Shown: positions 5,555-27,406 of the stretch, one piece after another
Position numbering within the stretch: the stretch's first letter is position 1
How the letters are laid out: every line of letters starts with the position of its first letter
From: Candidatus Uhrbacteria bacterium
GTDB lineage: Bacteria; Patescibacteriota; Patescibacteriia; UBA9934; GWF2-40-263
Direction of reading: 5' to 3'
Assembly (NCBI GenBank): GCA_013204385.1
Contig: JABMNY010000043.1
Coordinates: 1-33,747 of the forward strand
Length of the DNA: 33,747 nt
Notes under the pieces: model-generated
Databases searched by the model: none
What the model was told of the DNA's origin: nothing
What the model saw: the letters and a program-made list of their open reading frames with translations, nothing else
Translations under genes and position numbers: made by a program

Positions 5555-7114
5555 TTACACCAAACTCCCCCCAAACTCCTGAATAAGACCTTGCACAGCC
5601 TCATCCTGTTCTGGTTTTTTTGTTTGAACGGCTCTCACACGTAAACGTTTTCCCAGCACTTGTTCAAATATCCCTTCGATCAATCGACTGTTTTTTTCCT
5701 GATTGACTGTTTGAACATAGATATCATATTCAAACCCAAGCTCCACATATTCCCCTTCTACGCTATTCACCTCACAGGATCGCATCATCATTGGGAGCGA
5801 GGCATTACATGTCTTAATCTGTTCATACACTTGGGGCCACTTAGCCATGACTTCCTCAAGTCCGATCACTGGAACAGTATCAAACACTTTTTCAACTTCT
5901 GTAATATTTTCTGGAATTTCGATCGTTCCAACTAATTCAGAAATATTAGCATCGGGCACAAAAGGAACAGGATCAGGAATTTTCTCTTCGACACGACTTG
6001 AAACAACCCCCTGCTTCTTACCAGGAGGAGCCTGGTCCGGTTTCGCCGGAAAATCCTCAGAAGGATGTATTTTTGACTTATCCTGAACTCCACAAATCTT
6101 TACGATTACTAGTTCCACAGGAAGTTGAGGGATATTCTCCCCCCGAATTGCTCTATCTGCTTGTAGGAGCTCCTCTATAGCCTGCTGCAAGAATGAAATA
6201 GAAAACCCTTCGTCTTTACCCGATACAGCCATGAGAAGCCGATCTCGTAACCAGGAAATCACATCTGAAACAAAGTGTCGGAGGTCAACCCCTTGTTCAA
6301 GATAGGTATTGAGTTGCGTAATCGCCTCACCCGCCTGATGTGCATGTAATGTTTTTGAAAATGTTTCTATGAGAAGCGTTTGGGTGATTGGTAAAACAAG
6401 ACTAGCCTGTTCCAGTGTAATTTCTTTTTCCCCAAGAGCCAGAACCTGTCCAAGAAGACTCTCTGCGTCACGCGCACATCCTCCACTATGTCGTGCAATT
6501 TCTTGTAGGACATCAACATCAACCTTCACCCCTTCTGCCTCTACAATTCCCTGCATGCGAGCAACAAGCTCACTCGTGGCAATCCGTTTGAAATCGAATC
6601 GTTGACAACGACTAATAATCGTTTCAGGAACCTTATGGATTTCCGTTGTTGCCAAAACGAACATGGCATGATCAGGTGGCTCTTCTAACGTCTTTAAAAG
6701 AGCATTAAACGCAGATGTTGAAAGCATGTGTACCTCATCAATGATGTACACCTTTTTTTTCAAAATATTTGGAGCAAACCGAACAGAATCAATAACGGTC
6801 TCGCGCACATTCTCCACTCCCGTATGAGAAGCCGCATCGATTTCATACACATCAAGCGCCTGACCAGACGCGATGCTCACACACGCTGAACATGCATTAC
6901 ACGGCTCATTTTCTTTTACAGATTCACAATTCGCCAACTTGGCAATCAGCCGAGCGGTCGTTGTCTTTCCAACTCCTCGTGGACCTGTAAACAAATAAGC
7001 ATGGGCAAGAGATCCAGAAGCGAATTGGTTCTGCAGTGTGCGAACCACATGTTCCTGCCCGCTCACCTCCTTAAATGTAGATGGTCGATAAACGCGATAA
7101 ATCGCCTGTGCCAT
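5555..7114 (-). CDS. dnaX: DNA polymerase III subunit gamma/tau
   Basis: Clamp-loader ATPase that drives opening and placing of the beta clamp at the replication fork. In the 519 residues one sees the N-terminal motif YRVYRPSTFKEVSGQEHVV, Walker A GPRGVGKT (44-51), four zinc cysteines (C63, C72, C75, C78), Walker B VYIIDEVH (122-129), LSTSAFNALLKTLEEPP, and the SRC sensor/arginine-finger motif (168-170). The variable linker after about residue 330 is Pro/Lys-rich and leads to a small folded C-terminal domain. Residues about 354-365 are encoded by a palindromic repeat that also occurs in uvrB. It is last in the cysS-to-dnaX run, 3 bp after the preceding gene, without an SD. No programmed frameshift site is evident at the usual place. 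Confidence 0.96.
   Translation of the reverse strand: MAQAIYRVYRPSTFKEVSGQEHVVRTLQNQFASGSLAHAYLFTGPRGVGKTTTARLIAKLANCESVKENEPCNACSACVSIASGQALDVYEIDAASHTGVENVRETVIDSVRFAPNILKKKVYIIDEVHMLSTSAFNALLKTLEEPPDHAMFVLATTEIHKVPETIISRCQRFDFKRIATSELVARMQGIVEAEGVKVDVDVLQEIARHSGGCARDAESLLGQVLALGEKEITLEQASLVLPITQTLLIETFSKTLHAHQAGEAITQLNTYLEQGVDLRHFVSDVISWLRDRLLMAVSGKDEGFSISFLQQAIEELLQADRAIRGENIPQLPVELVIVKICGVQDKSKIHPSEDFPAKPDQAPPGKKQGVVSSRVEEKIPDPVPFVPDANISELVGTIEIPENITEVEKVFDTVPVIGLEEVMAKWPQVYEQIKTCNASLPMMMRSCEVNSVEGEYVELGFEYDIYVQTVNQEKNSRLIEGIFEQVLGKRLRVRAVQTKKPEQDEAVQGLIQEFGGSLV
6021..6053 (-). repeat. Palindromic repeat element, copy in dnaX
   Basis: 33 bp with two adjacent hairpins: CCAGG-AGGAG-CCTGG, then CCGG...CCGG. 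It matches the uvrB copy (26738-26770) at 29 of 33 positions by direct comparison. It lies in the linker of the clamp loader and is read in a different frame from the uvrB copy. Confidence 0.7.
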
Positions 7115-7117
7115 AGT

Positions 7118-7726
7118 CTAAGTATTCAAATGTTCAATAGCTGCCCAGACAGAATCCCCTCCAGATGGAGTCAAAATAGAAACCTCATCTCCGGCAATCC
7201 CTTTAAAATAGGAAACGCTTGCTGAAAGTACTTTATACACGTCCTCACCACAGACAACAACAGGCTCTTGTGTGGATGAATCGATTGACAATCGTCCTGT
7301 GAGACGACATCGATCAACAGGCCCAATTTGCTTAAATAAATACCCTCCATCTGGCTTGATGATCAGTTTCATCATGTCCCCTTCGACCAATTTCGATTTG
7401 GAAGCATAATTCTGAGGGATCGCATACCGAACCCCATCTGCGCCAACCATTCCCTGACCATCAAATACCCCTTCAACCATTCTCGCTCCGCTCCGAGCCT
7501 CCAAATCAGCTTCTGCCGTCTTTTTTTGCATCACAAAATCGACAAGATTACGCGTTGCCTTCGCTGTATCCCCTTCCTCGAGAAGTTGAATAACATGCGT
7601 CAAACTATCCCGCGTTTGTTTGAGCATCTGTAGTGCCAGACGATTACGCGCATCGCCCTGTTCGCGAACATGCGCATGTGTCTCAACATCTGGCTCTGCT
7701 TCAAAATCGAATGTGTCTTCTTCCAT
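7118..7726 (-). CDS. Conserved-looking unknown protein between the coupling ATPase and dnaX
   Basis: A 202-residue soluble protein with no signal peptide or membrane segment. The N-terminus is acidic (EEDTFDFEAEPDVE). A helical stretch follows, about 25-75 (LALQMLKQTRDSLTHVIQLL). The second half is beta-rich and glycine-rich: ARMVEGVFDGQGMVGADG, then ASKSKLVEGDMMKLIIKPDG and EVSILTPSGG. This resembles a small beta-barrel or OB-like domain that could bind nucleic acid, but that is inference. It is 10 bp after the VirD4-like gene and 3 bp before dnaX, with no SD, so it belongs to the same operon. The position suggests a link with DNA handling. I do not know a named family. Confidence 0.8.
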   Translation of the reverse strand: MEEDTFDFEAEPDVETHAHVREQGDARNRLALQMLKQTRDSLTHVIQLLEEGDTAKATRNLVDFVMQKKTAEADLEARSGARMVEGVFDGQGMVGADGVRYAIPQNYASKSKLVEGDMMKLIIKPDGGYLFKQIGPVDRCRLTGRLSIDSSTQEPVVVCGEDVYKVLSASVSYFKGIAGDEVSILTPSGGDSVWAAIEHLNT

Positions 7727-7736
7727 ATCAATCTAC

Positions 7737-10295
7737 TTAAAATTCACTTGCTTCTGGGAGTGCAGGAACTGCACCCGCTGTTTTTGAGACGGTTGTCCGC
7801 TCTGCAATATCTGCTTCAACAATAGAACGATCACGACCATATTTAAGGCGGGATAACTCCTTAATCGCATTCGCAAGTTCTCGATCCCCATTTCCAATCA
7901 CATTGATATTCATAGTGAATGGTTTGAGCTGTGAGTTGTCCGCTACCATTTTTACGTACCAGGTGTACTTATCTGAATTGATCAAATCGTATGGAGTGAA
8001 TTCTGGAGCAAAAATCTTTTGAAATATTTCTGAGTCTTCTGGTCCAATTCGAGCCACAAACATCGTCCCCACGTTTCCAAACACAGCCTCTTTAATTTTT
8101 GTATCTCCATTTTTCACTAACTGCCCAACGTATTGGTGAGCAATAATCAAGTTCAATCGATATTTACGCGCCTCAGACAAAATAGTCGCAATGGAATCAG
8201 TAATAAAGTTTTGAAACTCATCGATGTACAAATAAAAGTCATGTCGCTGATCCTCTGGAATGTCCGCACGTGTAAGTGCAGCCATCTGTAGCTTTGACAC
8301 AATAACGAGTCCAAGAAGTTCTGCGTTCACATCTCCTGTTTTTCCTTTTGAAAGGTTCACCAGAAGAATCTTCTTGTTGTCCATTATTTCTCGGAAATTG
8401 AAGCTCGATCTACTCTGACCGATGATATTGCGCATCATTTCATTCTCCACGAATCGACCTACTTTTGACACCAAGTACCCCATCATTTCAGACTTATGGT
8501 AATCACTCGTGTTATCGATTTCATCCTCCCAAAAACTCCGAACGACTGGATCTTTGAGTTTGGCACGCCACATGTTTTGGAATTTCTGATCCGTCACCAT
8601 ACGAGGAATCTCCGCAATGGTTCCAGGGTTTTCTGAGTCTGACATGAGTGTCAGCATAAAGTTTCGCATTTGATGTTCAAACATTGGTCCAATCATTTCT
8701 GGTGGAAACAATTTGTAGAAAATTCCAATCATTTCCTGCACCGCAAAGTCCTTCATGCCCTCATTCGGAGCCTCAAGCATGTTCAGACCCATTGGTCGTT
8801 CAAGATCTGATGGATTAAACACAATCACATCATCAATACGATTTTTTGGAATGTTTCCGAGCACTTGCTCCACCAGATCTCCGTGCGGCTCTACCACCGC
8901 AACTCCATGACCTGCTTTTATATCTTCAATAATATATCTGGCCATTGTCTGAGATTTACCAGAACCAGATTTTCCAATCAAATACATGTGACGTGTTCGG
9001 TCAGCACTCTTCATCCAAACAGGCGTCTTTACCCCTCGAAAGGTGTTGTATCCAAGTTCAATATCCCCTTCTTCAGGACCAGGAACTCCAGATGGCGCTG
9101 GACCTTTGCGAGCTCCAAGCCATAAAATATTTGGGGTCTCTGTCCACGGCAGAGGTAAATGCCAAAGACTCGCCATTTCCTCGGCGTTCATGGTTATTGT
9201 ATTTTGTTCATGAAACCCACGGTAAATAAAATTTCGAATGATCTTCTTTTTATTTCGTGGCACTACTTTGACAAACGAATTCCCGTATTCATAAATGTTG
9301 TACTGAGCAAATGCATTTAACATGTTTTGCAGAAGTGTCTGGGCATTTGTCGAAGATTCAGAACAAGCAATTAAGCGAATACACACATCCATTCCTGCCT
9401 TACTTGCTTTTGTCTGGAGGCCTTTCACAATCTGATCTTCTAGCGGAGAAAGACGATACTCCTTTTCAGGTTCTGATTTTTGAGTCGCACCGAACCCCAA
9501 AAGCTCTGACCAATTTGATTTCCCCTTTTTCTTTCCCTTCATGGCCTCTTCAAGTTTCATTCCCTGTTGCATGTGCGAGGCAATCTTGATGCCTTTTTTG
9601 CGCCATTTTGCATGAGACGAACGCACAAGAAATTGAAATGCGGCCCCATCTCCCTCAGGGATTTTTGAAAGAACGTTTGTGATTGCATTCAGCGGATCTT
9701 TATCAAGTTCTGTGTAGGTTTTAATCGGAAATGCATTTTCCCTTCGGTATACCAAATGAGCCCCCAAAATGACACTATTTGCCTTGAAGATATTGTAATC
9801 TTCGACTTCCTCGGTATACGCATCTGGATAGGCAGCTGACAACTGTTGTTCAATAAAATCTCGCAATTCAAATGGAGCCGTGACAATAAACTTGATCAGC
9901 TTTTTCTCCAACACAATCTCGAACGAAAACTCATCGCGACGGCCATGCATCCATGCCATGAACCCACGTTCTGCAACCAATCCTCCAACTGATGAAAAAA
10001 AAGACTCAGCCGCAGAAATTCCTTCTTGCACCTGGTCTTTTGACGGTCCTCGTTCACTATCAGATTCATGACGAAACTTTGGAAGCGTTACCAAAAACGT
10101 GACGCGCCGAAATGTTGCTTGTTTGGCAAGCGAGATACGACGCAAGAAAAATCTAATCGTATAGAGAATCGCGAAAACAACCCCTAACAGGGCAAGTCCC
10201 CATAACGCGATTGTTGCAAAAAAAAGATCTCCCTGTACCGTCGCTTGTACGGGCTGTGGGTCTACTTGAAGTCCAAATTGAAAGAGATACATCAC
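7737..10295 (-). CDS. VirD4/TraD-like membrane-anchored P-loop ATPase
   Basis: An 852-residue ATPase of the type IV coupling protein/HerA group, which pumps DNA or protein through a membrane channel. There is one N-terminal membrane helix (about 24-50), then a long domain of about 370 residues. The motor follows, with Walker A GKSGSGKS (near 440-448), VVEPHGDLVEQVLG just after, Walker B YLYIDEFQNF (near 687-696), and a later EARKYRLNLIIAHQ segment of the TraG/VirD4 type. No relaxase, VirB4 or pilus gene is nearby, so a mating function is not supported by context. CPR genomes often carry this gene alone or near pilus genes, and a role in DNA uptake or secretion is inference. Its start overlaps the preceding gene's stop by 4 bp (10292-10295). 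Confidence 0.85.
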   Translation of the reverse strand: MMYLFQFGLQVDPQPVQATVQGDLFFATIALWGLALLGVVFAILYTIRFFLRRISLAKQATFRRVTFLVTLPKFRHESDSERGPSKDQVQEGISAAESFFSSVGGLVAERGFMAWMHGRRDEFSFEIVLEKKLIKFIVTAPFELRDFIEQQLSAAYPDAYTEEVEDYNIFKANSVILGAHLVYRRENAFPIKTYTELDKDPLNAITNVLSKIPEGDGAAFQFLVRSSHAKWRKKGIKIASHMQQGMKLEEAMKGKKKGKSNWSELLGFGATQKSEPEKEYRLSPLEDQIVKGLQTKASKAGMDVCIRLIACSESSTNAQTLLQNMLNAFAQYNIYEYGNSFVKVVPRNKKKIIRNFIYRGFHEQNTITMNAEEMASLWHLPLPWTETPNILWLGARKGPAPSGVPGPEEGDIELGYNTFRGVKTPVWMKSADRTRHMYLIGKSGSGKSQTMARYIIEDIKAGHGVAVVEPHGDLVEQVLGNIPKNRIDDVIVFNPSDLERPMGLNMLEAPNEGMKDFAVQEMIGIFYKLFPPEMIGPMFEHQMRNFMLTLMSDSENPGTIAEIPRMVTDQKFQNMWRAKLKDPVVRSFWEDEIDNTSDYHKSEMMGYLVSKVGRFVENEMMRNIIGQSRSSFNFREIMDNKKILLVNLSKGKTGDVNAELLGLVIVSKLQMAALTRADIPEDQRHDFYLYIDEFQNFITDSIATILSEARKYRLNLIIAHQYVGQLVKNGDTKIKEAVFGNVGTMFVARIGPEDSEIFQKIFAPEFTPYDLINSDKYTWYVKMVADNSQLKPFTMNINVIGNGDRELANAIKELSRLKYGRDRSIVEADIAERTTVSKTAGAVPALPEASEF

Positions 10296-10855
10296 ACGTT
10301 TTCGTTTTGTTTTCGTTTTTCTTCTTCTGTGACAAACAGAATTTTGTCTGTTTTTATCTTTGCTTCTTGCTCGAGAAAAAATTTATTCACTCCTGGGACG
10401 ATTTGCAACCAAGATCGAATGAGTCCAAAAATTTTCTTTGCGTTCACTTTTGCAGATCCAACAAGGACTCGGATCCGAGAACGAGTCTCTTCTCCTTTTT
10501 CACGAAACTCCGCCTGTTTATCCGCAGGCATTGCAACATACAGTTCTTTCAGGTCCTCTTCAAGAATGTCCTCAATCTCTTCCTCTAATCGGTCTGTTTC
10601 CTTTTTCTGAACAGCAACCGGTATTGACGTGGCTGTTAATAACGCATCCGAAGGAACTTCACCCACCCCTGATGGCTCCGAGTCAGATTGTTCACTCGTC
10701 TCTGAACCTGATTGTTCTACAGATACTTCGGGAGAAACAGATGTCTCTGGAGTTGGTTCTGAATTTAAAGGAATCTCTTTTGACTCTGCATTCAAAATAA
10801 CAGACTCCTGCTTCCCAGAAGATTCCAGATCAATTGGACGAATATCTTTTACCAT
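10292..10855 (-). CDS. Acidic, low-complexity unknown protein coupled to the VirD4-like gene
   Basis: About 187 residues. The first half is a disordered Ser/Glu/Pro-rich stretch (TPETSVSPEVSVEQSGSETS...). The second half is helical and charged, with KKETDRLEEEIEDILEEDLK predicted as coiled coil, then a less charged segment (KKIFGLIRSWLQIVPGVNKF) that could be amphipathic, and a basic tail. The frame is open from GTG at 10861, but I choose ATG at 10855: a TGG-TAGAAT extended -10 ends 9 nt before this ATG, so the mRNA would start at about the codon itself. The 4-bp overlap with the ATPase gene implies translational coupling and perhaps a direct partnership. Family unknown. Confidence 0.75.
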   Translation of the reverse strand: MVKDIRPIDLESSGKQESVILNAESKEIPLNSEPTPETSVSPEVSVEQSGSETSEQSDSEPSGVGEVPSDALLTATSIPVAVQKKETDRLEEEIEDILEEDLKELYVAMPADKQAEFREKGEETRSRIRVLVGSAKVNAKKIFGLIRSWLQIVPGVNKFFLEQEAKIKTDKILFVTEEEKRKQNENV

Positions 10856-10864
10856 AGCCACTTC

Positions 10865-10873
10865 ATTCTACCA
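10865..10873 (-). promoter_or_regulatory. Extended -10 promoter, probably leaderless
   Basis: TGG-TAGAAT on the minus strand, with 9 nt to the ATG at 10855 and no clear -35. It would start the transcript of the acidic protein, VirD4-like ATPase, unknown and dnaX genes, downstream of cysS. Confidence 0.45.
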
Positions 10874-10907
10874 TAAAGAAGAAAAAGTGCGCTCCATCCT
10901 AACTCCA

Positions 10908-12278
10908 CTACAACAGTTTAATAACAGGTCCATCTTCCGTATCTTCCACCTGGAACCCCTGTTCTTGAATCTGTACTCTTAGAACATCAGATCGGTCCCA
11001 ATTCTTATCGATTCTTGCTTGTTCGCGTTCATTCACTAACAGCTGAACATTTGAAGGAATAAGGAGAGGCTTCCCTAAAAATGTATCAAGCCTGAGTCCC
11101 AAAACTCGATCCATCCACAAAAGCGTTCTTGATTTTGCAGATGTCTCAATATCTGCGTCAACTAATTTCCATACAACAGCAAGTGCTTGCGAGGTATTCA
11201 AATCATCATTTAAGGCTTCGAGAAATGCATCTTCTAATTCAGCACATTGCCCTTCTGGAGCATCCCACTCTCGAATAATTTCTTGAAGCTTATGAAGAGC
11301 ATTCTGTGCGGATTCTAGTGCTTCAAACGTAAAATTAAGTTTTGATCGATAATGACCTCCTAAAACAAAATAGCGGAACGCAAGCGGATCAAAACCTTTT
11401 TCCTCAAGTTGATCGACCGTAAAGAGATTTCCAAGTGACTTACTCATCTTTCCATGATCGATCGTTAAAAACTCATTGTGCATCCAGGTATTTGCTTCCA
11501 AAACCCCTTCCGCCCCCATGGTCTGCGCAATTTCATTTTCATGATGCACCGCAATATGATCCACTCCACCTGTATGGATATCAAAGGGAACTTCAAGATA
11601 CTTCATGCTCATTGCAGAACACTCAATATGCCACCCAGGAAACCCTGTCCCCCACGGTGACTCCCATTCCATGTCACGATCATTCTCGCTCCCAGAAAAC
11701 TTCCAGAGCGCAAAATCTGTGGCGGCTTGCTTTTCCCCTATCTCCACACGCGCACCTGATTTCTTGTCCTCTAACTTTTGCCCAGACAACCTTCCATAAT
11801 CAGCAAGTTTCGATGTGTCAAAATAGACTCCGTCAGTTGTTTTATAGGCAAAACCATTTTTCTCAATTGATTGAATCATTTCGATTTGTTCTGCAATATG
11901 ATCCGTAGCCTTTGGATAAAGATTTGCTGATTTGATATTCAGCGCCATGAGATCTTTCATGAACGCGCGTGTATAAAACTCCGCAATCTCATACGAAGTC
12001 TTCCCCTCTCGCTTCATCGCGACAATCATTTTATCTTCTCCATCGTCTGTGTCTCCCGTGAGATGTCCCACATCCGTAATATTCATCACTTGTTTAACCT
12101 CATATCCGTTTAATTCTAATGTTCTACGCAAGACATCCGCAAACAAAAAACTACGCATATTGCCTATATGGGCAAACCAATAAACCGTCGGACCGCAACT
12201 ATACATCCCAACCTTTCCTTCATAAATAGGGCTAAAGTCCTCCTTTTGACGTGTAAGCGTATTATAGAGTCGAATCAT
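10908..12278 (-). CDS. cysS: Cysteinyl-tRNA synthetase
   Basis: Class I aminoacyl-tRNA synthetase charging tRNA-Cys. The 456 residues have the normal CysRS length and order. YSCGPTVY starts the catalytic fold, with zinc ligand C28. HIGN at 37-40 is the HIGH signature. FPGWHIECSAMSMKYL and HHENEIAQ supply the other Zn-site residues (Cys, His, Glu). KMSKS lies in HGKMSKSLGN near 277. The C-terminal anticodon-binding helical bundle follows and ends VEDTEDGPVIKLL. The start is well supported because an extended -10 lies 9 nt upstream. There is no SD. It is the first gene of the minus-strand run that leads through the VirD4-like ATPase to dnaX. Confidence 0.97.
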   Translation of the reverse strand: MIRLYNTLTRQKEDFSPIYEGKVGMYSCGPTVYWFAHIGNMRSFLFADVLRRTLELNGYEVKQVMNITDVGHLTGDTDDGEDKMIVAMKREGKTSYEIAEFYTRAFMKDLMALNIKSANLYPKATDHIAEQIEMIQSIEKNGFAYKTTDGVYFDTSKLADYGRLSGQKLEDKKSGARVEIGEKQAATDFALWKFSGSENDRDMEWESPWGTGFPGWHIECSAMSMKYLEVPFDIHTGGVDHIAVHHENEIAQTMGAEGVLEANTWMHNEFLTIDHGKMSKSLGNLFTVDQLEEKGFDPLAFRYFVLGGHYRSKLNFTFEALESAQNALHKLQEIIREWDAPEGQCAELEDAFLEALNDDLNTSQALAVVWKLVDADIETSAKSRTLLWMDRVLGLRLDTFLGKPLLIPSNVQLLVNEREQARIDKNWDRSDVLRVQIQEQGFQVEDTEDGPVIKLL

Positions 12279-12287
12279 ATTAAGACG

Positions 12288-12296
12288 AGTATAGCA
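12288..12296 (-). promoter_or_regulatory. Extended -10 promoter of cysS, probably leaderless
   Basis: TGC-TATACT on the minus strand, 9 nt before the ATG of cysS. No convincing -35. The start point would be about 12279-12281, leaving no room for an SD. Confidence 0.5.
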
Positions 12297-12336
12297 TAAT
12301 AATGGTAAAATTCTTTACAGCTTTATCAAAAAAATT

Positions 12337-13566
12337 ATGTTGAAAAGAAGAGGAGAATCTCCTACTCAAGAACGAAGATCTCACAGGGAACTGAAAGAAG
12401 ATCAAGATATTCTCTCTATACGAACCATTCTTCTCTCGAACGGACAAGAGATGAGTTTTTATCACAATGAATCAATGGATCCCGTGGAATCTGCATGGGA
12501 ACCATCAGATTTTCCTATAGTATTCCAAGAAATTATTCGCGAGCGAGAGTCGGCAATGAAAAATTTTTATTCTCTCAAAGAGACTGTCACAACTCCTGAA
12601 TGGAAAGCCAATCTATTTCGTTTTCTCAGTGACTATCTTGAACATGAAGGGAGCTCACTTCTCGAATCTCTTTCGATTGTTGATATTCATCAACTCTCAC
12701 CCTCACAAATAATCAAATTATCCACAAAACTTGTAACTGGTTTGATGAAATACGATCGCGCCTCCTTAGAATCAGGAGAATCACAAAAACCACCCACCCG
12801 AGAAGACAACATGTCTATCTTAGAAATTCTGACGGAAGGCAGAGTACATATGGGTACCAGTGAGGACTGGGAAGGAAACGGTGTCTGCCGAAATTATGCT
12901 GCGGCAGAGTACGGCGTCTTTGAAGCGCTCAAAACTGCCCAAGAACAAGGAAGTCAGATTGAGCAGATGGTATGCCTTGTTGTTGTTGGAACAGAACATC
13001 TCCCAATGGAAGTGGAGAAGGTTGCGCAACCAGAGACAACACATGCCTGGAACATCTTTCTTTTGACCCCACAACAAGGAGAGGTTCATGTATCCATTAT
13101 TGATCCAACATGGACAGCGACAGAAGAGTCTCACAAATCAAATCCCCAAAGACAATCCGATTATACATTTCAAAGAATGGAAGGTTTTATCTTTACGCTT
13201 GGATCCGCAGTTGAAAAAGTTGATCGAGAATCTTGGAAAGCGGTTAGCGTCTTCTACAAAAGTATGCTCGAAAAATATTCTGGTAGATCTGCCCCAGAGG
13301 CTCAAGCAAAGCGGAATTACTATGTCTACCGCTTCCTGCTTCTTGTCGAGAATATAATTGATCTTTCTGATCAGCGACCAGGAATACAAGAGTTAAAGGA
13401 TCAGATTCGTTCTGAATACACAACCCTCCTTAGCTCCGCTGACACGATCGTCTCAAAACCTCTAGGACCACGACTACGTATACTCGCCGCCAAAGAACAG
13501 GACGACCTACTCATGTCTGCACTGAAAAAATTTGGAAATTCAAAAGCACACAAAAACCAGCCATAA
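12337..13566 (+). CDS. Unknown protein with a transglutaminase-like catalytic core
   Basis: A 409-residue soluble protein without signal peptide. The first 150 residues are charged and mostly helical. The central part looks like a transglutaminase/protease-type thiol fold: C184 at the start of a helix (NGVCRNYAAAEYGVFEAL), H236 in THAWNIFLL, and D256 in SIIDPTW. This Cys-His-Asp order and spacing, with HAWN and DPTW, is the family hallmark. The remaining ~150 residues are helical. No peptidoglycan-binding or membrane segment is present, so the substrate is probably intracellular; cross-linking, peptidase or a non-enzymatic role all remain possible. The assignment is from motifs only. It stands alone between divergent cysS and convergent terminator hairpins. 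Confidence 0.8.
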   Translation: MLKRRGESPTQERRSHRELKEDQDILSIRTILLSNGQEMSFYHNESMDPVESAWEPSDFPIVFQEIIRERESAMKNFYSLKETVTTPEWKANLFRFLSDYLEHEGSSLLESLSIVDIHQLSPSQIIKLSTKLVTGLMKYDRASLESGESQKPPTREDNMSILEILTEGRVHMGTSEDWEGNGVCRNYAAAEYGVFEALKTAQEQGSQIEQMVCLVVVGTEHLPMEVEKVAQPETTHAWNIFLLTPQQGEVHVSIIDPTWTATEESHKSNPQRQSDYTFQRMEGFIFTLGSAVEKVDRESWKAVSVFYKSMLEKYSGRSAPEAQAKRNYYVYRFLLLVENIIDLSDQRPGIQELKDQIRSEYTTLLSSADTIVSKPLGPRLRILAAKEQDDLLMSALKKFGNSKAHKNQP

Positions 13567-13579
13567 ACGGCTGGTTTTT
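13552..13579. terminator. Bidirectional terminator overlapping the stop of the transglutaminase-like gene
   Basis: AAAAACCAGCC (13552-13562), a 6-nt loop containing the stop codon region and GGCTGGTTTTT (13569-13579). It serves both converging genes. Confidence 0.85.
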
Positions 13580-13595
13580 CAGGATCGAATACATT

Positions 13596-14339: not shown

Positions 14340-14351
14340 ACTCGATGTATT

Positions 14352-15490: not shown

Positions 15491-15499
15491 GCGCCAGCT

Positions 15500-18310: not shown

Positions 18311-18414
18311 AAATATGGCCTCCTTCTTATTAGTTGCCGAAGATTGAGGTTCCATTCAGGGAAAAAGGTTCAATTAAACCCCACATGGAACTTCAAACTT
18401 CGACATCCAATGAA

Positions 18415-18846: not shown

Positions 18847-18914
18847 AATGGGCCGTATCTCAAGTGGGAATTAAATAAAAGTGAGCACCGCTGAAAATCA
18901 TTTCTCAGCAATCC

Positions 18915-18989: not shown

Positions 18990-19022
18990 ACCCAATCTCC
19001 ATTTTTGAGTTAAAAAATGGGA

Positions 19023-19028
19023 TACAAT
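19023..19028 (+). promoter_or_regulatory. Possible -10 box of the methyltransferase gene
   Basis: TACAAT, 9 nt before the ATG at 19038, no good -35. Same geometry as cysS. It would overlap the longer ATG at 19017, favouring the later start. Confidence 0.35.
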
Positions 19029-19037
19029 TTATTTACT

Positions 19038-19589: not shown

Positions 19590-19597
19590 CGTCTTTT
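19574..19597. terminator. Bidirectional terminator
   Basis: AAAAGACGC (19574-19582), a 6-nt loop and GCGTCTTTT (19589-19597). The stem includes the last codons of the methyltransferase gene and separates it from the converging small membrane protein. Confidence 0.8.
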
Positions 19598-19626
19598 ATG
19601 TTTGTTTAATTTCATCGATACCGAAC

Positions 19627-19875
19627 CTATCTCAATATCTGTGCCATTGCGATTAATGCAATCGCGCTCCAGATCACATTTAATACGGCTGGTTGATAGT
19701 TCTTATCAGCAATCGCATCAATAATGATTCCAATACCCCCAAAAAAGTTCAGCAACTGATATTCAATAGATACAGGCTCAAGATATCCAAAACTCAACAG
19801 CCCATACGCCAATAAAATGAGTAAAACACCGATCCATCCAGCAATTTCTGTCAGATTCTCTAGTTGTGCATTCAT
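19627..19875 (-). CDS. CBU_0592-type small membrane protein
   Basis: 82 residues with three short hydrophobic helices: IAGWIGVLLILLAYGLLSFG, LLNFFGGIGIIIDAIADK and AVLNVIWSAIALIAMAQIL. The pattern 'AYxLLSFGYLEPxSxxYQLLNxxGG...YQPAxLNxIW' is that of the CBU_0592 family, whose function is unknown. It starts 7 bp after the uvrC stop and so is transcribed with uvrC. No SD is visible. Confidence 0.8.
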   Translation of the reverse strand: MNAQLENLTEIAGWIGVLLILLAYGLLSFGYLEPVSIEYQLLNFFGGIGIIIDAIADKNYQPAVLNVIWSAIALIAMAQILR

Positions 19876-19882
19876 ATAAAGT

Positions 19883-21211
19883 TTAGTTCTTTTTTGGAAT
19901 AAGACTCTTCGCTCTCACCGTGCGATGATATTTTACCGCAAAACGATGCGCTTCGTCTCGAGCTTTTTGAAACAGTTCCTTTCCGCGAGTTGCAGCACGC
20001 ACAAGCTCGGCATTATTTCGATCAAGCACAAGTCGATCCTGTTTGCGATCAAACCCTTTTGCCAACCCCACGATGGGAACAATCATCCTAAATTCATCCA
20101 ACACATCTTGAACACGATGAACTTGTGGCTTCCCTCCATCAATCACCATCACCTCAGGCAACGGCCAAGATGCAGGATACATCTGTGCACGCTTGAGGCG
20201 ACGTCGTATCACCTCTTCCATCATCGCCACATCATTTGGTCCTTCTACAGATTTAATCTTGAACTTTCGATACTTTTCCTTTGTTGGTAACCCATCTTCA
20301 AACACCACCATCGAACCCACAGCACTTGTTCCAGAAATGTTACTAATGTCGTACGCCTCAATTCTCCCTTCAAGATTAATGGCGCCCGTTGCGATCTCTT
20401 CAGAAAATGGAAGATCGTGGTCTTCTCTGGAAAGAAGCGCAATATCTTGGATATGTGCAAGCGCCCGCAGACGTCGTTGATACTCAGACGCATCTTCAAA
20501 CCGTAATTCTGTTGACGCACGCTTCATCTGTGTTTCAAGAGAGCGTTCAAGTCTCCCCTTTTTTCCTTCAAAAAAGTAAATGAATTGCCGAATATATTTT
20601 TTATACTCCGTTTGAGAGATTTTGCCTGAGCAGACTCCCGGACATTTCCCAATCTGAGAATTAAAACACCCCTTTGTACGCCCCGTAACTTCTGGAGGCT
20701 GACATACACTCCAAGGAATAATCTTTCGAATGAGTTCAAGTGCGATCTTCAGAGATCGACTGCTTGTGTACGGTCCAAATACGCGCAAAAATTTTTTCTT
20801 TGCAACGCCTGTGAGCGTTACTTGAAATGGGTTCACTCCCATCTGTTGTAATTCACGACCTCGCATCAAAATCGGACGAGGGAATGGTTCATTTGTTACG
20901 ACAAGATAGAGAAATGTTTTATCATCACGCTGAAGAATATTATACTTTGGCTTTAACGCTTTGATCTTATTGGCTTCCAAGACAAGAGCTTCAATCACGG
21001 TCGGTGTTTGGATATAGTCAATGAGCGCAATTTGAGAAACCATTTCTTCAATCCGTCTGTCATGCGCCTTTGTAAAATAGGATCCTACTCTGCGAGTCAA
21101 AGAAGTGGCCTTTCCCACATATAAAAGGAAACCGTTTTTATCATAATAGAGATACACCCCTGGAGCATCTGGAAGCTGTTGATGTTTTACCTTGATTTTT
21201 GTAGGGATCAT
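19883..21211 (-). CDS. uvrC: Excinuclease ABC subunit C, C-terminally shortened
   Basis: UvrC makes both incisions in nucleotide excision repair. Of the 442 residues, the GIY-YIG domain is intact (GVYLYY 18-23, LYVGKA 30-35). Four cysteines (C170, C182, C190, C194) match the Fe-S or metal cluster. The UVR motif spans about 225-258 and binds UvrB. The RNase H-like domain begins EAYDISNISGTSAVGS (D288), with MVIDGGKPQVH (D358) and RDEAHRFAVKYHR (H422). It stops at RAKSLIPKKN. Usual UvrC proteins (about 600) continue with a segment carrying the last catalytic Asp and the (HhH)2 domain; both are absent here. No frameshifted remainder follows, since the next gene begins 7 bp later. 3' incision should work; 5' incision is in doubt. 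Confidence 0.9.
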   Translation of the reverse strand: MIPTKIKVKHQQLPDAPGVYLYYDKNGFLLYVGKATSLTRRVGSYFTKAHDRRIEEMVSQIALIDYIQTPTVIEALVLEANKIKALKPKYNILQRDDKTFLYLVVTNEPFPRPILMRGRELQQMGVNPFQVTLTGVAKKKFLRVFGPYTSSRSLKIALELIRKIIPWSVCQPPEVTGRTKGCFNSQIGKCPGVCSGKISQTEYKKYIRQFIYFFEGKKGRLERSLETQMKRASTELRFEDASEYQRRLRALAHIQDIALLSREDHDLPFSEEIATGAINLEGRIEAYDISNISGTSAVGSMVVFEDGLPTKEKYRKFKIKSVEGPNDVAMMEEVIRRRLKRAQMYPASWPLPEVMVIDGGKPQVHRVQDVLDEFRMIVPIVGLAKGFDRKQDRLVLDRNNAELVRAATRGKELFQKARDEAHRFAVKYHRTVRAKSLIPKKN

Positions 21212-21252
21212 AAGGTAGGCTTCTGGAAGGATTTGTTCTTAACTTTGTCACT

Positions 21253-21720
21253 ATGAAGTCTTTATTTTTTCTCTCTTTAGCGCTCATACTCACGGGTGCA
21301 GGATGCACTTCTGATCCAAGCTTACTTGATATAAGTGATTTGAGTGTCACAACCTCCTCTGGATCAACAATCACACAAAAGATTGATACGAATTCAGCAA
21401 CAACCACAGAAGATGGAGTCGTTGTGACAGAAATTATGCTTGGAGATCCAGCGGACGTGGAACTCGATATGGAAAGTGGGAACTTCTTTTTCTCCCCAAG
21501 CGAAATCACTGTTTCTCAAGGAGATACCGTTGCCATCACATTCACAAAAAACTCAGGCACGCATACGTTTGTCATCGATGAACTGAACGCAAAGTTCGAA
21601 ATTGCAGAAGGTGAAACATATTACTTTACCGTCCCTGAAGAAGCAGGATCATACGCATTCTACTGTGATATCGGCTCACATCGATCATTCGGCATGGAAG
21701 GCACACTCATTGTAAAATAA
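21253..21720 (+). CDS. Cupredoxin-domain lipoprotein
   Basis: 155 residues. A lipoprotein signal ends at C18 (lipobox LTGAGC), followed by a Ser/Thr-rich linker of about 45 residues and a C-terminal cupredoxin domain (about 75-155). Copper ligands are in place: H104 (SGTHTFVID), C138 (FYCDIG), H143 and M148, the type I blue-copper set His-Cys-His-Met. The protein should sit on the outer face of the membrane and carry one copper ion, either as an electron carrier or a copper store. The window also has a copper ATPase (31942 onward), though not adjacent. Convergent with the M23 lipoprotein. No SD. Confidence 0.88.
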   Translation: MKSLFFLSLALILTGAGCTSDPSLLDISDLSVTTSSGSTITQKIDTNSATTTEDGVVVTEIMLGDPADVELDMESGNFFFSPSEITVSQGDTVAITFTKNSGTHTFVIDELNAKFEIAEGETYYFTVPEEAGSYAFYCDIGSHRSFGMEGTLIVK

Positions 21721-21725
21721 GCATT

Positions 21726-21759
21726 AAAACGGGGCAGAATGGAACTTCCCCGTTTTTTT
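21726..21759. terminator. Bidirectional terminator
   Basis: AACGGGG...CCCCGTT stem (21728-21734, 21748-21754) with A- and T-runs outside, between the converging cupredoxin and M23 genes. Confidence 0.8.
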
Positions 21760-21760
21760 A

Positions 21761-22828
21761 TTACTCCTCAATACTATCTAGCAAAGCGTCATAAACCTGT
21801 CTATCAACCTCTGGATTCACCGCAATAACGTAATAACGGGTATATCCCTCTTCAAATCGAAAATCTATCACAACATGACGTTCGTTTCGCCACTGAGGTT
21901 GATCCACAAAATCTGACACCCCAGTATTCTTTTCAATATCATATCTTCGAGCCTCCAGACTTGCTTCAGTTACGAGGAGCTCTTCTGTGGAATAAAGTTT
22001 CACGGTAGACAGCGTCAGAAATTCACTGGCATCAAAATATCGAATAAGCACCTGTGAACGCTGTCTCGCTGCCCCCGGCCCATAGACGGTGTAGATATTC
22101 AGCGACTTAATGGAGGGAATATATTCGATATCCCATCCTTCTGGGAGTGTGAACTCCCATGGGAAGATCTCCTCACCTTGTCCATACTGTAACTCTGATG
22201 CCCTTCTAGATGTCCTCCATGTTTTATTTCCAAGTTCATCAATTGGATTTAGCCAATTATTCATCGCGTCTGGATCTGTTTCATATCCATTCAATCGAAC
22301 AGCACTCCCCTCATACATCGCAAAATGAAGATGTTCTCGTTCCCCATCTGTTTCACTTCCTTCTTCACCTAAAACCCCTATCTGCTCACCACTCTCCAAA
22401 ACAACCCCAACGGCTGGGATTGAGGCTGGATCAAGATGTCCGTAAATCGCACTCACGGTACGTCCTTCCAGCTCATGTGCGACCACAACCACTCCTCCAT
22501 ACCCAGAAACACGACCACTGTAGATCACTTCACCATCGACAATGGCATACACAGGTGTATCGGCAGGAGCCTCCAAATCTATTCCTGTGTGATAGCCTGA
22601 AAATCGATCCTCGAAATACTCCCCAAACCCCTTGTAGATGAGTTCGCCTTCAATTGGAAGATCTTCAGCCGTTTTCTGATCTGGAATTTTTTCACCTCCA
22701 CTCTCGCTTTCCGAACGTACTTCATTCTGCACAGCATCTTGATTTGTTCCTTGAGAATACTCCCCTAACGAACATCCAGCTCCTGTTAATAGAAGCACGA
22801 GACTCATGAGAACAAGATATTTTGTCAT
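21761..22828 (-). CDS. M23 (LytM-type) metallopeptidase lipoprotein
   Basis: 355 residues, exported and lipid-anchored: the signal ends in LLTGAGC (C19). A linker rich in Glu, Ser and Gln follows. The M23 domain covers about 60-190 with the zinc residues H80 and D84 (HTGIDLEA), H131 (IYGHLD) and the HLH pair (H166, H168; EHLHFAMYEG). M23 enzymes cut peptidoglycan cross-bridges, and all zinc ligands are present, so it is probably active. The remaining ~160 residues form an extra beta-rich domain of unknown function with no peptidoglycan-binding signature. Its start lies one base after the uvrA stop, so it is carried on the uvrB-uvrA transcript, an odd pairing of repair and cell-wall genes. Confidence 0.9.
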   Translation of the reverse strand: MTKYLVLMSLVLLLTGAGCSLGEYSQGTNQDAVQNEVRSESESGGEKIPDQKTAEDLPIEGELIYKGFGEYFEDRFSGYHTGIDLEAPADTPVYAIVDGEVIYSGRVSGYGGVVVVAHELEGRTVSAIYGHLDPASIPAVGVVLESGEQIGVLGEEGSETDGEREHLHFAMYEGSAVRLNGYETDPDAMNNWLNPIDELGNKTWRTSRRASELQYGQGEEIFPWEFTLPEGWDIEYIPSIKSLNIYTVYGPGAARQRSQVLIRYFDASEFLTLSTVKLYSTEELLVTEASLEARRYDIEKNTGVSDFVDQPQWRNERHVVIDFRFEEGYTRYYVIAVNPEVDRQVYDALLDSIEE

Positions 22829-22829
22829 A

Positions 22830-25361
22830 TTATTTTTTTAACACACGTTTCAAATACTGACCTGTATAACTCGCTCCATGGCGTGCAATATCCTCAGGGG
22901 TTCCTGCAATGACAACCTCTCCTCCTAAATCTCCTCCCTCGGGACCCAAATCAATCAACCAATCTGCCGTTTTGATTACATCAAGATTGTGTTCGATCAC
23001 TACAACCGTGTTTCCCTTATCAACTAATTCATGCAACACCTGGAGCAACTTCTTTACATCCTCAAAGTGAAGACCTGTCGTTGGTTCATCAAGAAGATAG
23101 AGCGTCTTTCCTGTCTGACGTTTTGCAAGCTCCGTCGAAAGTTTCACACGCTGAGCCTCTCCTCCTGAGAGCGTTGGAGCAGGTTGACCAAGCTTCACGT
23201 ATCCTAGCCCCACGCGTTTCAAGGTTTCAAGACGGTCAGAGACTGGTGGAACATCCTTAAAGAACTCTGCCGCTTCCTCAACCTCCATTTCAAGAATCTG
23301 AAAAATATTCTTTTCTTTATAGAGAATCTCCAATGTTTCACGATCAAAACGTTTCCCTTTACAAACATCGCAAGTGACATAGACCGTTGGGAGAAAATGC
23401 ATTTCAATCGCAATCATTCCGTGTCCTTCGCAATTCTCACAGCGTCCACCCGGTCGATTAAAACTGAACCGCCCTTTTTTGTACCCCCGATAGCGCGCCT
23501 CTGATGTTTCTGTGAAGATATCTCGAACAGGACCCCAGATACCTGTATAGGTCGCTGGGTTTGATCGAGAGGTTCGCCCAATCGCCCCTTGATCAATCAA
23601 AATCGTCTTGTCCAAATATTCCACACCAAGAATGGCTTTATGTATCCCGGGTGTTTGTTTTCCTCCATTCAGTTTCTTTGAAACTGCTTTGTACATGGTT
23701 TCATACGCCAAGGTTGATTTCCCTGATCCAGAAACGCCTGTCACACAGACAAACCGTCGTAGTGGAATTTCGACATCAATATTTTTCAGGTTGTTTGATG
23801 AGGCTCCCTTAATTTTGAGCACATCCTTTCCTGGGGCTCGACGATCTGTTGGAATCTCAATTTTTTTATCTCCTCTCAAATACGCAGCGGTAAGCGAGTT
23901 TGGATCTTTTATCGCAACCGATGTTTCTGCAGCAACGATGACATGTCCCCCATTTACTCCGGCACCTGGTCCAATCTCGACCATAAAGTCGGAAGCGAGC
24001 ATCGTGTCTTCATCGTGTTCCACCACAATCACAGTATTCCCAATATCCCGAAGATCCTCAAGCGTCTCGATCAGACGGTCATTGTCTCTTTGGTGCAATC
24101 CAATGGTTGGTTCATCCAACACATACATCGCCCCCACCAAACGAGATCCTACTTGAGACGCAAGTCGAATGCGTTGAGCTTCACCACCTGACAAGGTTCC
24201 TGCCATCCGGTTGAGTGTCAGATAATGTAATCCAACGTCGAGCATGAATTTTAGGCGGTTTTGAACTTCCTTTAAAATAGAACCTGCAATCTGCGTATCC
24301 TTTTCACTTAAAGAAAGATTCGTGAAAAAATCTACTGCATCTGCAATCGACATTGCCGAGACTTCCACAATCGAAATTCCCTTCTCATTTTTTGCTTTCC
24401 CAGGTCTTGGCAACCAAACAAAGAGTGCCTCCTCTCGAAGCCTAGCTCCCGAGCATTTTCCGCACAGCTCCTCAGAATACAGTTCTGCTGTTCCGAGTCC
24501 TGTACATTCTGGACATGCTCCATAGGGAGAGTTGAATGAGAACAACCGAGGTTCAATTTCAGGAAACGAGAAGCCATCTTTTGGACAACTGAACTTTGAA
24601 GACATAAGTTGTTCAGTCTCATCTGGATAGATGATATTTGCAACATCTTCACCACGATCAACGGCAATTTCAAGCGCATCTGCCAATCGCTGGCGAGCAT
24701 CCTTCTCGTTTGTCTTAAACGAAGCTACCGGAATGGTGTCAACGACGATTTCAATCACATGCGCCTTGTATCTAGCGAGCTTGATCTGTTCATCCAAGCG
24801 ATGTTCCTTTCCATCAATTCGGACACGGGCGAATCCTGAATTATAAAGATCGTACAGCAATTGGTAATACTCTCCCTTTCGTCCTTTCACAACAGGCGCA
24901 AGCACTTTTACAGAACCCTTTTCACCGGTGATGTGCGTAAGAACCATGTCGACCATTTCTTCGTTCGTCAGCTTCTGGATTTTCTCCCCACAGGTCACGC
25001 AATGAGGTTGGGCAACACGCGCATAAAGCACGCGAAGATAATCGTAAATTTCAGTGATGGTTGCAACCGTAGATCGGGGGTTACTTCCATGCGCTTTTTG
25101 ATCAATTGAAATAGCAGGAGATAGTCCTTCAATCTCATCAACGTCTGGCTTTTCCATTTGTCCTAAGAACTGTCTCGCGTATGCAGACAATGATTCGACA
25201 TACCGTCTCTGCCCTTCGGCAAAGATGGTATCAAACGCCAAACTCGACTTTCCTGATCCAGAGACACCCGTAAAACAAATGAGTTTATTGCGAGGTAGCT
25301 CAAGACTAATATTCTTTAAATTATGCTCTCGTGCCCCTTTGATGATTATTTTATCTTGCAT
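22830..25361 (-). CDS. uvrA: Excinuclease ABC subunit A
   Basis: Damage-sensing ABC ATPase of nucleotide excision repair. Two P-loops (GVSGSGKSSLAFDT near 32-45 and GVSGSGKSTLAYET), two signature motifs (LSGGEAQRIRL, LSGGEAQRVKL) and two Walker B segments (LDEPTIGLHQRD, LDEPTTGLHFED) are intact. The C-terminal zinc finger CENC...CDVC is complete. In the first zinc module the family CxxC is C259-P-K-D262, so one cysteine is replaced by Asp, while the following CPEC is kept. At 843 residues it is shorter than the usual ~940, mostly from the insertion domains. It starts 2 bp after the uvrB stop and ends 1 bp before the M23 gene, so the three form an operon. No SD. Confidence 0.97.
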   Translation of the reverse strand: MQDKIIIKGAREHNLKNISLELPRNKLICFTGVSGSGKSSLAFDTIFAEGQRRYVESLSAYARQFLGQMEKPDVDEIEGLSPAISIDQKAHGSNPRSTVATITEIYDYLRVLYARVAQPHCVTCGEKIQKLTNEEMVDMVLTHITGEKGSVKVLAPVVKGRKGEYYQLLYDLYNSGFARVRIDGKEHRLDEQIKLARYKAHVIEIVVDTIPVASFKTNEKDARQRLADALEIAVDRGEDVANIIYPDETEQLMSSKFSCPKDGFSFPEIEPRLFSFNSPYGACPECTGLGTAELYSEELCGKCSGARLREEALFVWLPRPGKAKNEKGISIVEVSAMSIADAVDFFTNLSLSEKDTQIAGSILKEVQNRLKFMLDVGLHYLTLNRMAGTLSGGEAQRIRLASQVGSRLVGAMYVLDEPTIGLHQRDNDRLIETLEDLRDIGNTVIVVEHDEDTMLASDFMVEIGPGAGVNGGHVIVAAETSVAIKDPNSLTAAYLRGDKKIEIPTDRRAPGKDVLKIKGASSNNLKNIDVEIPLRRFVCVTGVSGSGKSTLAYETMYKAVSKKLNGGKQTPGIHKAILGVEYLDKTILIDQGAIGRTSRSNPATYTGIWGPVRDIFTETSEARYRGYKKGRFSFNRPGGRCENCEGHGMIAIEMHFLPTVYVTCDVCKGKRFDRETLEILYKEKNIFQILEMEVEEAAEFFKDVPPVSDRLETLKRVGLGYVKLGQPAPTLSGGEAQRVKLSTELAKRQTGKTLYLLDEPTTGLHFEDVKKLLQVLHELVDKGNTVVVIEHNLDVIKTADWLIDLGPEGGDLGGEVVIAGTPEDIARHGASYTGQYLKRVLKK

Positions 25362-25363
25362 AG

Positions 25364-27406
25364 CTATTTTTTCTTCTTTGACTCTTTTCCCTTAAGTTCC
25401 TTACTCAATAACAGAATTTCATCACGTAATAGAGCAGCTGTTTCAAAATCGAGTTTCTTTGCCGCTTCCTTCATGTCGTACTCTTTTTCTTTAATGACTT
25501 GCTCGATCTCATGAGGTTCAGCTGTCATTTCTAGCTTGAGAATTTCTGCGACAGAATCCTTCTCTCCCCCAAGCATCGCGCGAATATCTTTGATCTCCTT
25601 TTGAATCGACTGAGGAGTAATGCCGTGCTTCTTATTGTGTGCCACTTGAATCTTACGACGTCTCGTTGTTTCTTTAAGCGCACGCTCAAGCGATCCTGTC
25701 ATCTTATCGGCATACACGATGACCTCTCCATCGATGTTTCGAGCCGCGCGACCAATCGTTTGAATAATGGCGGTTTCTGAGCGCAAAAATCCTTCTTTAT
25801 CCGCATCGAGAATAGCCACTAATGTGACCTCTGGAAGATCCAGTCCTTCGCGGAGTAAGTTCACTCCCACAACGACGTCATACATTCCCTTTCGCAAATC
25901 TGAAAGAATGGTAATGCGATCAAGTGTCTGTACATCAGAGTGAAGATACTGCACCTTAATCCCCTTCTCAAGCAAAAACTCTGTAAGGTCTTCCGCCATC
26001 TTTTTTGTAAGGGTCGTCACAAGAGCCCGACCCTTTTTTGCGACACGTATTTCAATCTCCCGAATCAGATCCTCTACTTGTCCAGGATAATCCCCATCTT
26101 CTGTCACTGGACGCATGGTTACCTCTGGATCCACAAGCCCGGTCGGACGAATAATCTGCTCAATGATCTTTGACGACTTTTCGAGTTCATACTTACCTGG
26201 CGTCGCACTGACAAACACCATCTGCTTCATACGCTCAACAAACTCATCAAACTTGAGGGGTCGGTTATCCTTCGCACTTGGGAGTCTAAATCCATGCTCA
26301 ATCAATGTCCCCTTTCGAGCCTGATCTCCGTTATACATCCCCCCAACCTGAGGAATAGTCACATGCGACTCATCAATAATTGTCATGAAGTCATCTGGAA
26401 AATAGTCGATGAGGGAGTAGGGAGGTTGTCCTGGTTCTCGTCCATCAAAGTGTCGAGAATAGTTCTCGATCCCATTGCAGTAGCCAATATTCTCAATCAT
26501 CTCTAAATCAAACCGTGTCCGACGAGAAAGACGTTCTGCCTCTAAGACTTTTCCTTCTATATCAAACTGTGCCAATCGCTCTTTCAAGTCACGTTTAATT
26601 TCCTTTACAGCACCATCTTGCCTTGATGGAGATACAACGTAATGTTTTGCTGGAAAGATCCAAATATCCTCTGGACGACTTAAAAACTTTCGTGTGATCG
26701 GATCAAGGGCTTGCAAATCAATAATGCGCTCATCTTCCCCGGCGGAGCCGGGTCCGGCTTCGCCGGAAAAAATCATGCGGTACACGATCTCTTCATTCAT
26801 TGGCATCACTTCGACAATGTCTCCACGCGCTCTGAAATGCCCTCGTGTAATATCTGCGTTTGTCCGTTCAAACTGCATCGCTGTTAGGCGATGCAAAAGT
26901 TCATTACGTTCCAAGCCTCCACGTTTCTCGATATGCAAAACGGTATCCTTATACTCATCCGGACTTCCAAGCGCGTAAATACAAGACACACTCGCCACAA
27001 TAATGACATCGCGTCGAGTTAAGAGCGCCTGCGTTGCAGAATGTCGAAGTCGATCAATTTCCTCATTAATCTGGGATTCTTTTTCAATATACGTATCTGT
27101 CCGAGGCATGTAGGCCTCAGGTTGATAATAATCGTAGTAACTCACAAAATACTCAACTGCATTGTTTGGGAAAAACTCACGGAACTCATTACAAAGCTGT
27201 GCCGCAAGCGTCTTGTTATGCGCAATCACAAGAGTTGGTTTTTGGGTATTCACAATCACATTCGCCATCGTGAATGTTTTTCCTGAACCCGTCACACCCA
27301 AAAGCGTCTGATACTCCTCACCCGCATTGATTCCTTTTGTGAGTTCCTCAATGGCCTTCGGTTGATCTCCGGCTGGTTTATATTCTGAATGTAGTTCAAA
27401 TTTCAT
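25364..27406 (-). CDS. uvrB: Excinuclease ABC subunit B
   Basis: DNA helicase-like subunit that verifies damage and recruits UvrC. From the preferred start (27406; 680 residues, typical) it begins [20 protein letters not shown]. Walker A is GVTGSGKT, the damage-probing beta-hairpin [17 protein letters not shown] is near 90-110, and DESH and QTIGRAARN are the Walker B and motif VI. A C-terminal UVR motif ([17 protein letters not shown]) is present. A Gly/Ala-rich insert, [11 protein letters not shown] (near 211-222), interrupts a region that usually continues directly from FxG to DERI; it is encoded by a palindromic repeat. The frame is open to an ATG at 27427, seven codons upstream, which remains possible. 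Confidence 0.97.
26738..26770 (-). repeat. Palindromic repeat element, copy in uvrB
   Basis: 33 bp with two hairpins side by side: CCCGGC-GGA-GCCGGG and CCGGC-TTC-GCCGG. 29 of 33 bases equal the dnaX copy (6021-6053). It is inserted in frame and encodes the Gly/Ala-rich insert of UvrB. Confidence 0.75.

Follow-up and report, generated by a model that had tools for sequence, protein, structure and literature searches.

A 30-bp double-hairpin element, very probably mobile, within genes of Patescibacteria

The 33,747-nucleotide stretch of DNA analysed here (hereafter the window: positions 1 to 33,747 of contig JABMNY010000043.1, assembly GCA_013204385.1, Candidatus Uhrbacteria bacterium) carries two similar palindromic segments, one within dnaX and one within uvrB, very probably two copies of a mobile DNA element, very small and non-autonomous, that belongs to Patescibacteria. 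This element is multicopy, it is found as a flush insertion at three genes, it obeys a target rule, its pairing is maintained while the stem sequence varies between copies, and its copies within genes are biased towards one reading phase. In what follows, G000 denotes the window's own genome (1.05 Mb in 48 contigs, of which the window is contig C35), other genomes are numbered G, and fetched stretches are numbered L.

Two copies in the window

The first copy (6021-6050), a decayed one, lies in dnaX (5555-7114, read on the minus strand), the gene for the clamp-loader tau/gamma subunit (Pfam DNA_pol3_delta2, with a DnaX_C score slightly below the cut-off), and the second, intact one (26738-26767) lies in uvrB (25364-27427, likewise on the minus strand), the gene for excinuclease subunit B (Pfam UvrB, UvrB_inter and UVR, together with matches to UvrB entries of the PDB). 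By using a covariance model (CM) trained on 38 distinct elements, we scored the two copies at 28.2 bits (E = 3.6e-4) and 51.7 bits (E = 3.8e-10), respectively. A previous sequence-only reading of the window had reported that 6021-6053 and 26738-26770 agree at 29 of 33 bases, and our recount gave the same figure (mismatches at positions 3, 6, 13 and 21). Among direct 33-base pairs with a common 10-mer this is the top score in the window, the best pairs in 20 dinucleotide shuffles of the window having reached 23-25; of the second hairpin, the window contains two occurrences where shuffled sequence averages 0.06. The two genes were also said to read the segment in different phases, and so they do: the uvrB copy begins at a codon boundary and the dnaX copy (PAKPDQAPPG when translated on the minus strand) at a third codon base.

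Structure of the element

The 30-bp unit is composed of two abutting 15-nt hairpins, each with a 6-bp stem and a 3-nt loop, and its consensus in the lineage of the window, (Y)CCGGC-RNA-GCCGG(R) followed by (Y)CCGGC-TNY-GCCGG(R), is nearly its own reverse complement. The length of 33 bp that had been proposed for it was too generous, as the trailing AAA is flank (sites that are empty in relatives are without exactly 30 bp). Searching 800,645 bases for this geometry (stem 6, loop 3, gap 0, twice) returned 119 exact matches, a number that recounts copies shared by overlapping loci (many of them pattern-selected), versus 0 in a single dinucleotide-shuffled control. For stems of 6 or 7 bp the remaining geometries gave 0-2 matches in the same bases, and two 5-bp-stem geometries score equally because they detect the same elements. 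After deduplication, 114 matches with at least 11 of 12 Watson-Crick pairs (the threshold of the structural scan) were retained, 109 of which had the loops NNA and TNN. Copies carry stems of the types CCGGC, CAGGC, CCGCC, CAGCC and CCCGC, and the triloops (GNA, ANA) resemble very stable DNA mini-hairpins.

The description as two adjacent hairpins stands for the family, since 99.1% of the cells in a 38-sequence alignment are paired in this form versus 88.6% as one long hairpin (a conserved form that we accordingly rejected), but it fails for the plus strand of the uvrB copy taken alone, whose best fold is one long hairpin. We further compared the core stems of the two hairpins and found them unlike each other in 17 of 109 copies and in 19 of 42 copies of a second set (drawn from 40 stretches of other genomes and selected through model matches), so that in these 36 of 151 copies full pairing is possible only as a double hairpin. 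Double-sided changes were registered at 8 of the 12 base pairs of the 38-sequence alignment, and four out of five covariation measures exceeded all 500 shuffles (as with the pairing percentages, these are upper bounds). One compensatory change, C to A with G to T at the third base pair of the first stem, had already been noticed between the window copies and was upheld, but the dnaX copy is not fully paired (base pair 6 is A.G in its first stem and T.G in its second).

Gly, Ala and Ser are encoded by GC-rich palindromic codons, and low-complexity linkers arising in two proteins, or plain chance, could in principle produce such a resemblance. We regard this explanation as vanishingly unlikely, given the 29 of 33 identical bases in different phases, the presence of copies in transfer-messenger RNA (tmRNA), in partial tRNA copies and outside genes, and the absence of matches from shuffled sequence and from 100 kb of E. 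coli DNA (CM control at E <= 1). A chance match was rejected on three comparisons: 29 of 33 bases against a maximum of 25 in the 20 shuffles, two second hairpins against the shuffled mean of 0.06, and 119 against 0 occurrences of the geometry.

Genomic copies and empty sites

The CM search that the sequence-only reading had recommended recovered 9 clear copies in the 1.05 Mb of G000 and further ones in many relatives. In addition to the two in the window, copies were found in dnaK (C26:5799 and C26:5868) and directly past it (C26:5997), upstream of the tmRNA gene (C22:6645) and within it (C22:7053-7081, with RF00023 aligning around the copy), in aspS (C1:20413), and outside any clear gene (C32:10921), the gene limits being taken from lists of open reading frames (ORFs). 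Two weak partial matches (C15:2141 and C26:8412) were excluded from this count. At the latter site (G000:C26:8412-8431, stretch L021) an ORF that, by eye, resembles the Gly/Phe-rich region of DnaJ contains a single hairpin similar to one half of the element; this hairpin may be either a partial or a chance copy.

Aligning orthologues, the other recommended check, revealed that the segment is absent from 28 of 29 other uvrB loci, from all five aspS orthologues with more than 50% identity and from the nearest dnaX orthologue. At uvrB, where the ten residues are missing everywhere except in G005, the DNA reads TTT|GAA in G003 and G004 and TTT[30 bp]GAA in G000; the gene of G002, inspected separately, is also without the element. 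The best-matching UvrB with a solved structure is without an insert here, in agreement with the earlier statement that the family normally lacks one at this position. For aspS, exactly ten codons are absent in G003, G002, G001, G011 and G047 (empty site AAA|GAT), and for dnaX exactly ten are absent in G003, the linker of the remaining orthologues being too variable for a decision. At these three genes the element is a flush 30-bp insertion without target duplication. The tmRNA of G000 (421 nt) is longer than those of G001 (396 nt) and G003 (393 nt) by 25 and 28 nt, the extra segment being located immediately 3' of the last pseudoknot.

The exceptional G005 uvrB holds a decayed 30-bp copy at the identical nucleotide position as G000. 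The UvrB tree joins G000 to G003 (99/98) and G005 to G004 (100/100), and as only one sister of each pair has the element, at least two changes must have happened at one nucleotide; these may have been two gains, or losses that restored the site exactly. A scan of uvrB in G002, G019, G024 and G053 (at least 10 of 12 pairs) yielded two matches without the loops or stems of the element, and further insertions of it in these genes were rejected. In the same four genes (stretches L200-L203, from G002, G024, G053 and G019, respectively) the tblastn alignment first breaks near residue 443, suggesting small in-frame insertions other than the 30-bp element.

A non-mobile alternative holds that the element is functional structured DNA or RNA under selection (e.g., a regulatory hairpin, a terminator or an uptake signal). 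It would fit with a structure that is maintained while the sequence varies, and with the recurrence of palindromes in partial tRNA copies upstream of the start codons of GIY-YIG endonuclease genes (see below). We nevertheless find it very improbable, since coding sequences and the tmRNA contain copies, congeners have empty sites at the orthologous positions, and a scan of five sources against Rfam gave no family on the element at gathering score (a known Rfam RNA was therefore discarded as a candidate). Uptake signals occur at densities far above the roughly 9 copies per Mb found here, and the copies being too sparse, this candidate was discarded as well.

Target rule and use as coding sequence

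Across 103 non-redundant sites, G was absent at position -2 and C at position +2 (0 of 206 flanks), whereas T occupied -2 in 70 sites, A occupied +2 in 61, G occupied -6 in 44 and C occupied +6 in 45. The exclusion of G(-2) and C(+2) is separately true for the 47 coding, the 34 other and the 22 tRNA-linked sites, and it recurred in 84 of 84 flanks of the second set (in which G at -6 was weaker, 24/84, and A was commoner, 32). Across the junction, pairing at positions ±1 and ±2 is depleted, and the two excluded bases, G at -2 and C at +2, would be able to pair with the invariant C17 and G14 of the element.

Copies were located within ORFs of at least 160 codons in 53 out of 109 cases, versus 73% of 30-mers drawn at random from those loci, so that long ORFs are somewhat avoided. 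Within them, phase 0 prevailed (46 of 53 copies, taking the longest open frame as the gene frame), mainly read as (S/P)GxAG(S/P)GxAG; in the second set it was found in 18 of 25 long-ORF copies, mainly read as SAxGGSAxGG. We reason that the element can be tolerated in conserved proteins because its length of 30 is divisible by three and because its commonest phase yields a Gly/Ser/Ala linker in either orientation. Hosts elsewhere that could be named through NCBIfam comprise L6, Tgt, a ClpA/B-type ATPase (fragment), transketolase, LepA, AspRS, UvrB (at a second site) and a NifS/IscS-type desulfurase. In its other settings (tmRNA and partial tRNA copies) the element can be tolerated as an added stem-loop.

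Distribution

The exact motif (CCGGC-type stem only) was scanned for in the assemblies of 84,980 species and encountered in 71 stretches from 23 assemblies, 20 of which are titled Uhrbacteria, Kerfeldbacteria, Parcubacteria, Doudnabacteria, Microgenomatus or Patescibacteria, and three just 'bacterium'; none of the assemblies titled Rickettsia had it. With the window's own genome counted in each case, CM matches were obtained in 56 of 90 genomes of relatives (E <= 0.01) and in 34 of 192 genomes drawn from the phylum (E <= 1e-4), the copy numbers per genome being approximate because both strands were counted and not all candidates were scored. Spread through known viral contigs was rejected (0 exact CCGGC-type motifs in IMG/VR). 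In the open-licence literature (no preprints, few subscription papers) we found neither a palindromic element reported for Patescibacteria, although an earlier description is possible, nor anything on palindromes inserted in tRNA genes of the candidate phyla radiation.

Candidate helper enzymes

Repetitive extragenic palindromes (REPs) are short, palindromic and repeated, and spread by means of an enzyme acting in trans. A REP-like element moved by a Y1 (RAYT/IS200-type) transposase is an alternative. Hairpins and an absent target duplication are compatible with Y1 chemistry, and Y1_Tnp matches were present in 45 of 68 genomes (G000 among them). However, five genomes with CM matches (G051, G027, G034, G048 and G054, in assemblies 91-100% complete) had no Y1_Tnp match, including G051 (100% complete, 23 CM matches on both strands), which excludes such an enzyme as a constant partner; moreover, long ORFs contain about half of the copies, whereas REPs are extragenic. 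We hold this origin to be improbable. No transposon with the ends of the element turned up, although no systematic search for one was made.

A sharper form of the mobile-element reading is that the element is inserted by tRNA-invading GIY-YIG endonucleases or along with them: cuts in tRNA-like targets would be sealed with ready-made hairpins, and the other copies would be off-target. We put this forward tentatively, these enzymes being the best lead, and a doubtful one, for a candidate helper. The arrangement begins with the 5' portion of a tRNA gene, in which the element is set, and continues with a GIY-YIG ORF of about 80 amino acids (PF01541; 81 in L034:1540-1782) and then the intact tRNA. 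Within the partial tRNA (copies of tRNA-Glu, -Gln and -Asn; the one in L073 holds three palindromes) the element is placed in the D region (GGTTAG|GAC and similar) or in the anticodon loop (CAGGTTTT|CATCC). A GIY-YIG ORF together with a duplicated 5' tRNA part with palindromes was found in L032, L034, L035, L037, L040, L042, L068, L073, L098, L104, L122, L154, L155, L161, L163, L165, L166, L167 and L169 (and weakly in L156). In L032 and L169 the ORF lies between two copies of the element, the linkage being via the tRNA copies.

In support of a role for these endonucleases, 14 of the 103 copies lie at most 300 nt from such an ORF, the 22 tRNA-linked sites follow the same target rule as the sites elsewhere, and GIY-YIG matches occur in all 58 genomes searched (own included). 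Among ten ORFs directly upstream of an intact tRNA, in loci that had not been chosen for an element (L122, L154, L155 twice, L156, L161, L163, L165, L167 and L169; L166 and L168 were left out, having been selected for a nearby element), nine were preceded by a palindrome-interrupted partial tRNA (L156 weakly, by eye; the second ORF of L155 had none). Some of the interrupting palindromes differ from the element, e.g., in L154 from G062, a genome without CM match. On the other side, no such ORF lies within 300 nt of 89 of the 103 copies, the element was near none of the 30 best-per-genome loci (which led us to reject GIY-YIG genes in general as its neighbours) and near 7 of all 54 ORFs examined (within 300 nt in both cases), the four listed of the six GIY-YIG matches of G000 are not beside a copy, and G011, G013, G062 and G063 have 4-5 such matches but no CM match.

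A still more speculative idea, which we consider unlikely on the present data, is that of a novel mobile system in Patescibacteria, in which the upstream tRNA copy of tRNA-invading GIY-YIG genes would be plugged by a palindrome and the 30-bp double hairpin would be such a plug, escaping genome-wide under the same target rule and being read as linkers. If true, palindrome insertion would be a footprint of endonuclease action, which would explain the transposase-free spread of such elements, perhaps also that of the Rickettsia palindromic elements (RPEs) and of mitochondrial double hairpins.

Three observations concern the surroundings of tRNA and tmRNA genes. Beside the GIY-YIG genes of L165 and L169, a gene that by eye is tRNA-Asn-like holds a group I intron (L165:1140-1463 and L169:1357-1588; RF00028, 83 and 89.5 bits), and is labelled by ARAGORN as Thr with intron. 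In two relatives, a GIY-YIG match is situated some 120 nt away from the tmRNA gene (G054:C8:28732-28944 and G057:C3:2290-2499); in G000 one copy of the element lies in the tmRNA and another just upstream of it. Finally, tandem repeats of a 109-nt unit, made up of a partial tRNA-Glu and the element, stand upstream of an intact tRNA-Glu in L046:1501-1637, with no GIY-YIG ORF detected.

Discussion

We interpret the two window segments as copies of a mobile element with a maintained structure, as had been suggested from the letters of the window alone, and propose that a trans-acting nuclease or recombinase would place preformed hairpin DNA at cut targets. The element would then stay in transcripts instead of being removed, its copies would decay after insertion, and it would be mainly a selfish or neutral passenger. 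Several points count against this interpretation. Mobility is read from the distribution of copies, and as many loci were chosen by sequence pattern or by the CM, the copy statistics describe a non-random sample. The pairing and covariation figures are upper bounds because the scan preselected paired copies (at least 11 of 12 pairs), and the fifth covariation measure (further pair types) was reached by 72 of 500 shuffles. The empty-site comparison covered uvrB, aspS, dnaX and, in part, tmRNA; the dnaX empty site is supported by one close orthologue (G003), and the tmRNA alignment took in 4 of 11 sequences, the seven whose 3' end was not located by the script having been dropped.

Intragenic palindromic elements also occur in Wolbachia, and coding palindromes have reportedly been found in mitochondria of Nematomorpha. 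Double-hairpin elements of Allomyces mitochondria are said to have been described by Paquin, Laforest and Lang in 2000, and RPEs by Ogata, Claverie and colleagues. According to PMC2229807, RPEs are palindromic repeats of 105-146 bp with long stem-loops, inserted in frame in conserved protein genes, and also occur in tmRNA and RNase P RNA. The likeness to RPEs that had been pointed out holds for behaviour but not for length and anatomy (30 versus 105-146 bp), on account of which we do not class the element as a member. Alike are the in-frame insertions in uvrB, dnaX and aspS (with empty sites) and, judged by position in ORFs, the copies in dnaK, L6, Tgt, LepA, the NifS/IscS-type desulfurase, AspRS and the second UvrB site, as well as the insertion in a stable RNA gene (the tmRNA of G000); unlike are the fixed two-hairpin geometry, the phylum, and the additional presence in GIY-YIG-linked partial tRNA copies.

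The mitochondrial double hairpins of Allomyces are likewise found in genes, and PMC2800124 presents them as thought to be mobile, without flanking duplications and retained in transcripts. Compared by description, they share with our element the two consecutive hairpins and the lack of flanking target duplication (at uvrB and aspS), but they are organellar and fungal, whereas the bacterial element keeps strictly to a 6/3/6 + 6/3/6 arrangement and measures ten codons. Miniature inverted-repeat transposable elements (MITEs) are characterized, in PMC10969869, as small palindromic repeats that an enzyme acting in trans disperses, normally intergenic and, when younger, with target duplications. Our element is smaller than MITEs, often genic and without target duplication (although duplications can fade with age). 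It also departs from REPs and bacterial interspersed mosaic elements (BIMEs), as it is not confined to extragenic locations (53 of 109 copies in long ORFs) and lacks a Y1 transposase as constant partner. With GIY-YIG homing endonuclease genes it has in common the setting (small PF01541 ORFs at tRNA genes, with an intact tRNA downstream), but it encodes nothing, and most of its copies have no such gene nearby.

Behaviour like that of RPEs is met in another phylum with a much smaller unit of strict geometry, which has empty sites and a measurable target rule and sometimes stands beside a candidate nuclease; taken together, these properties make the question of mobility testable. They also indicate that, in small genomes, even essential genes (AspRS, UvrB, DnaK) acquire linkers from apparently selfish DNA.

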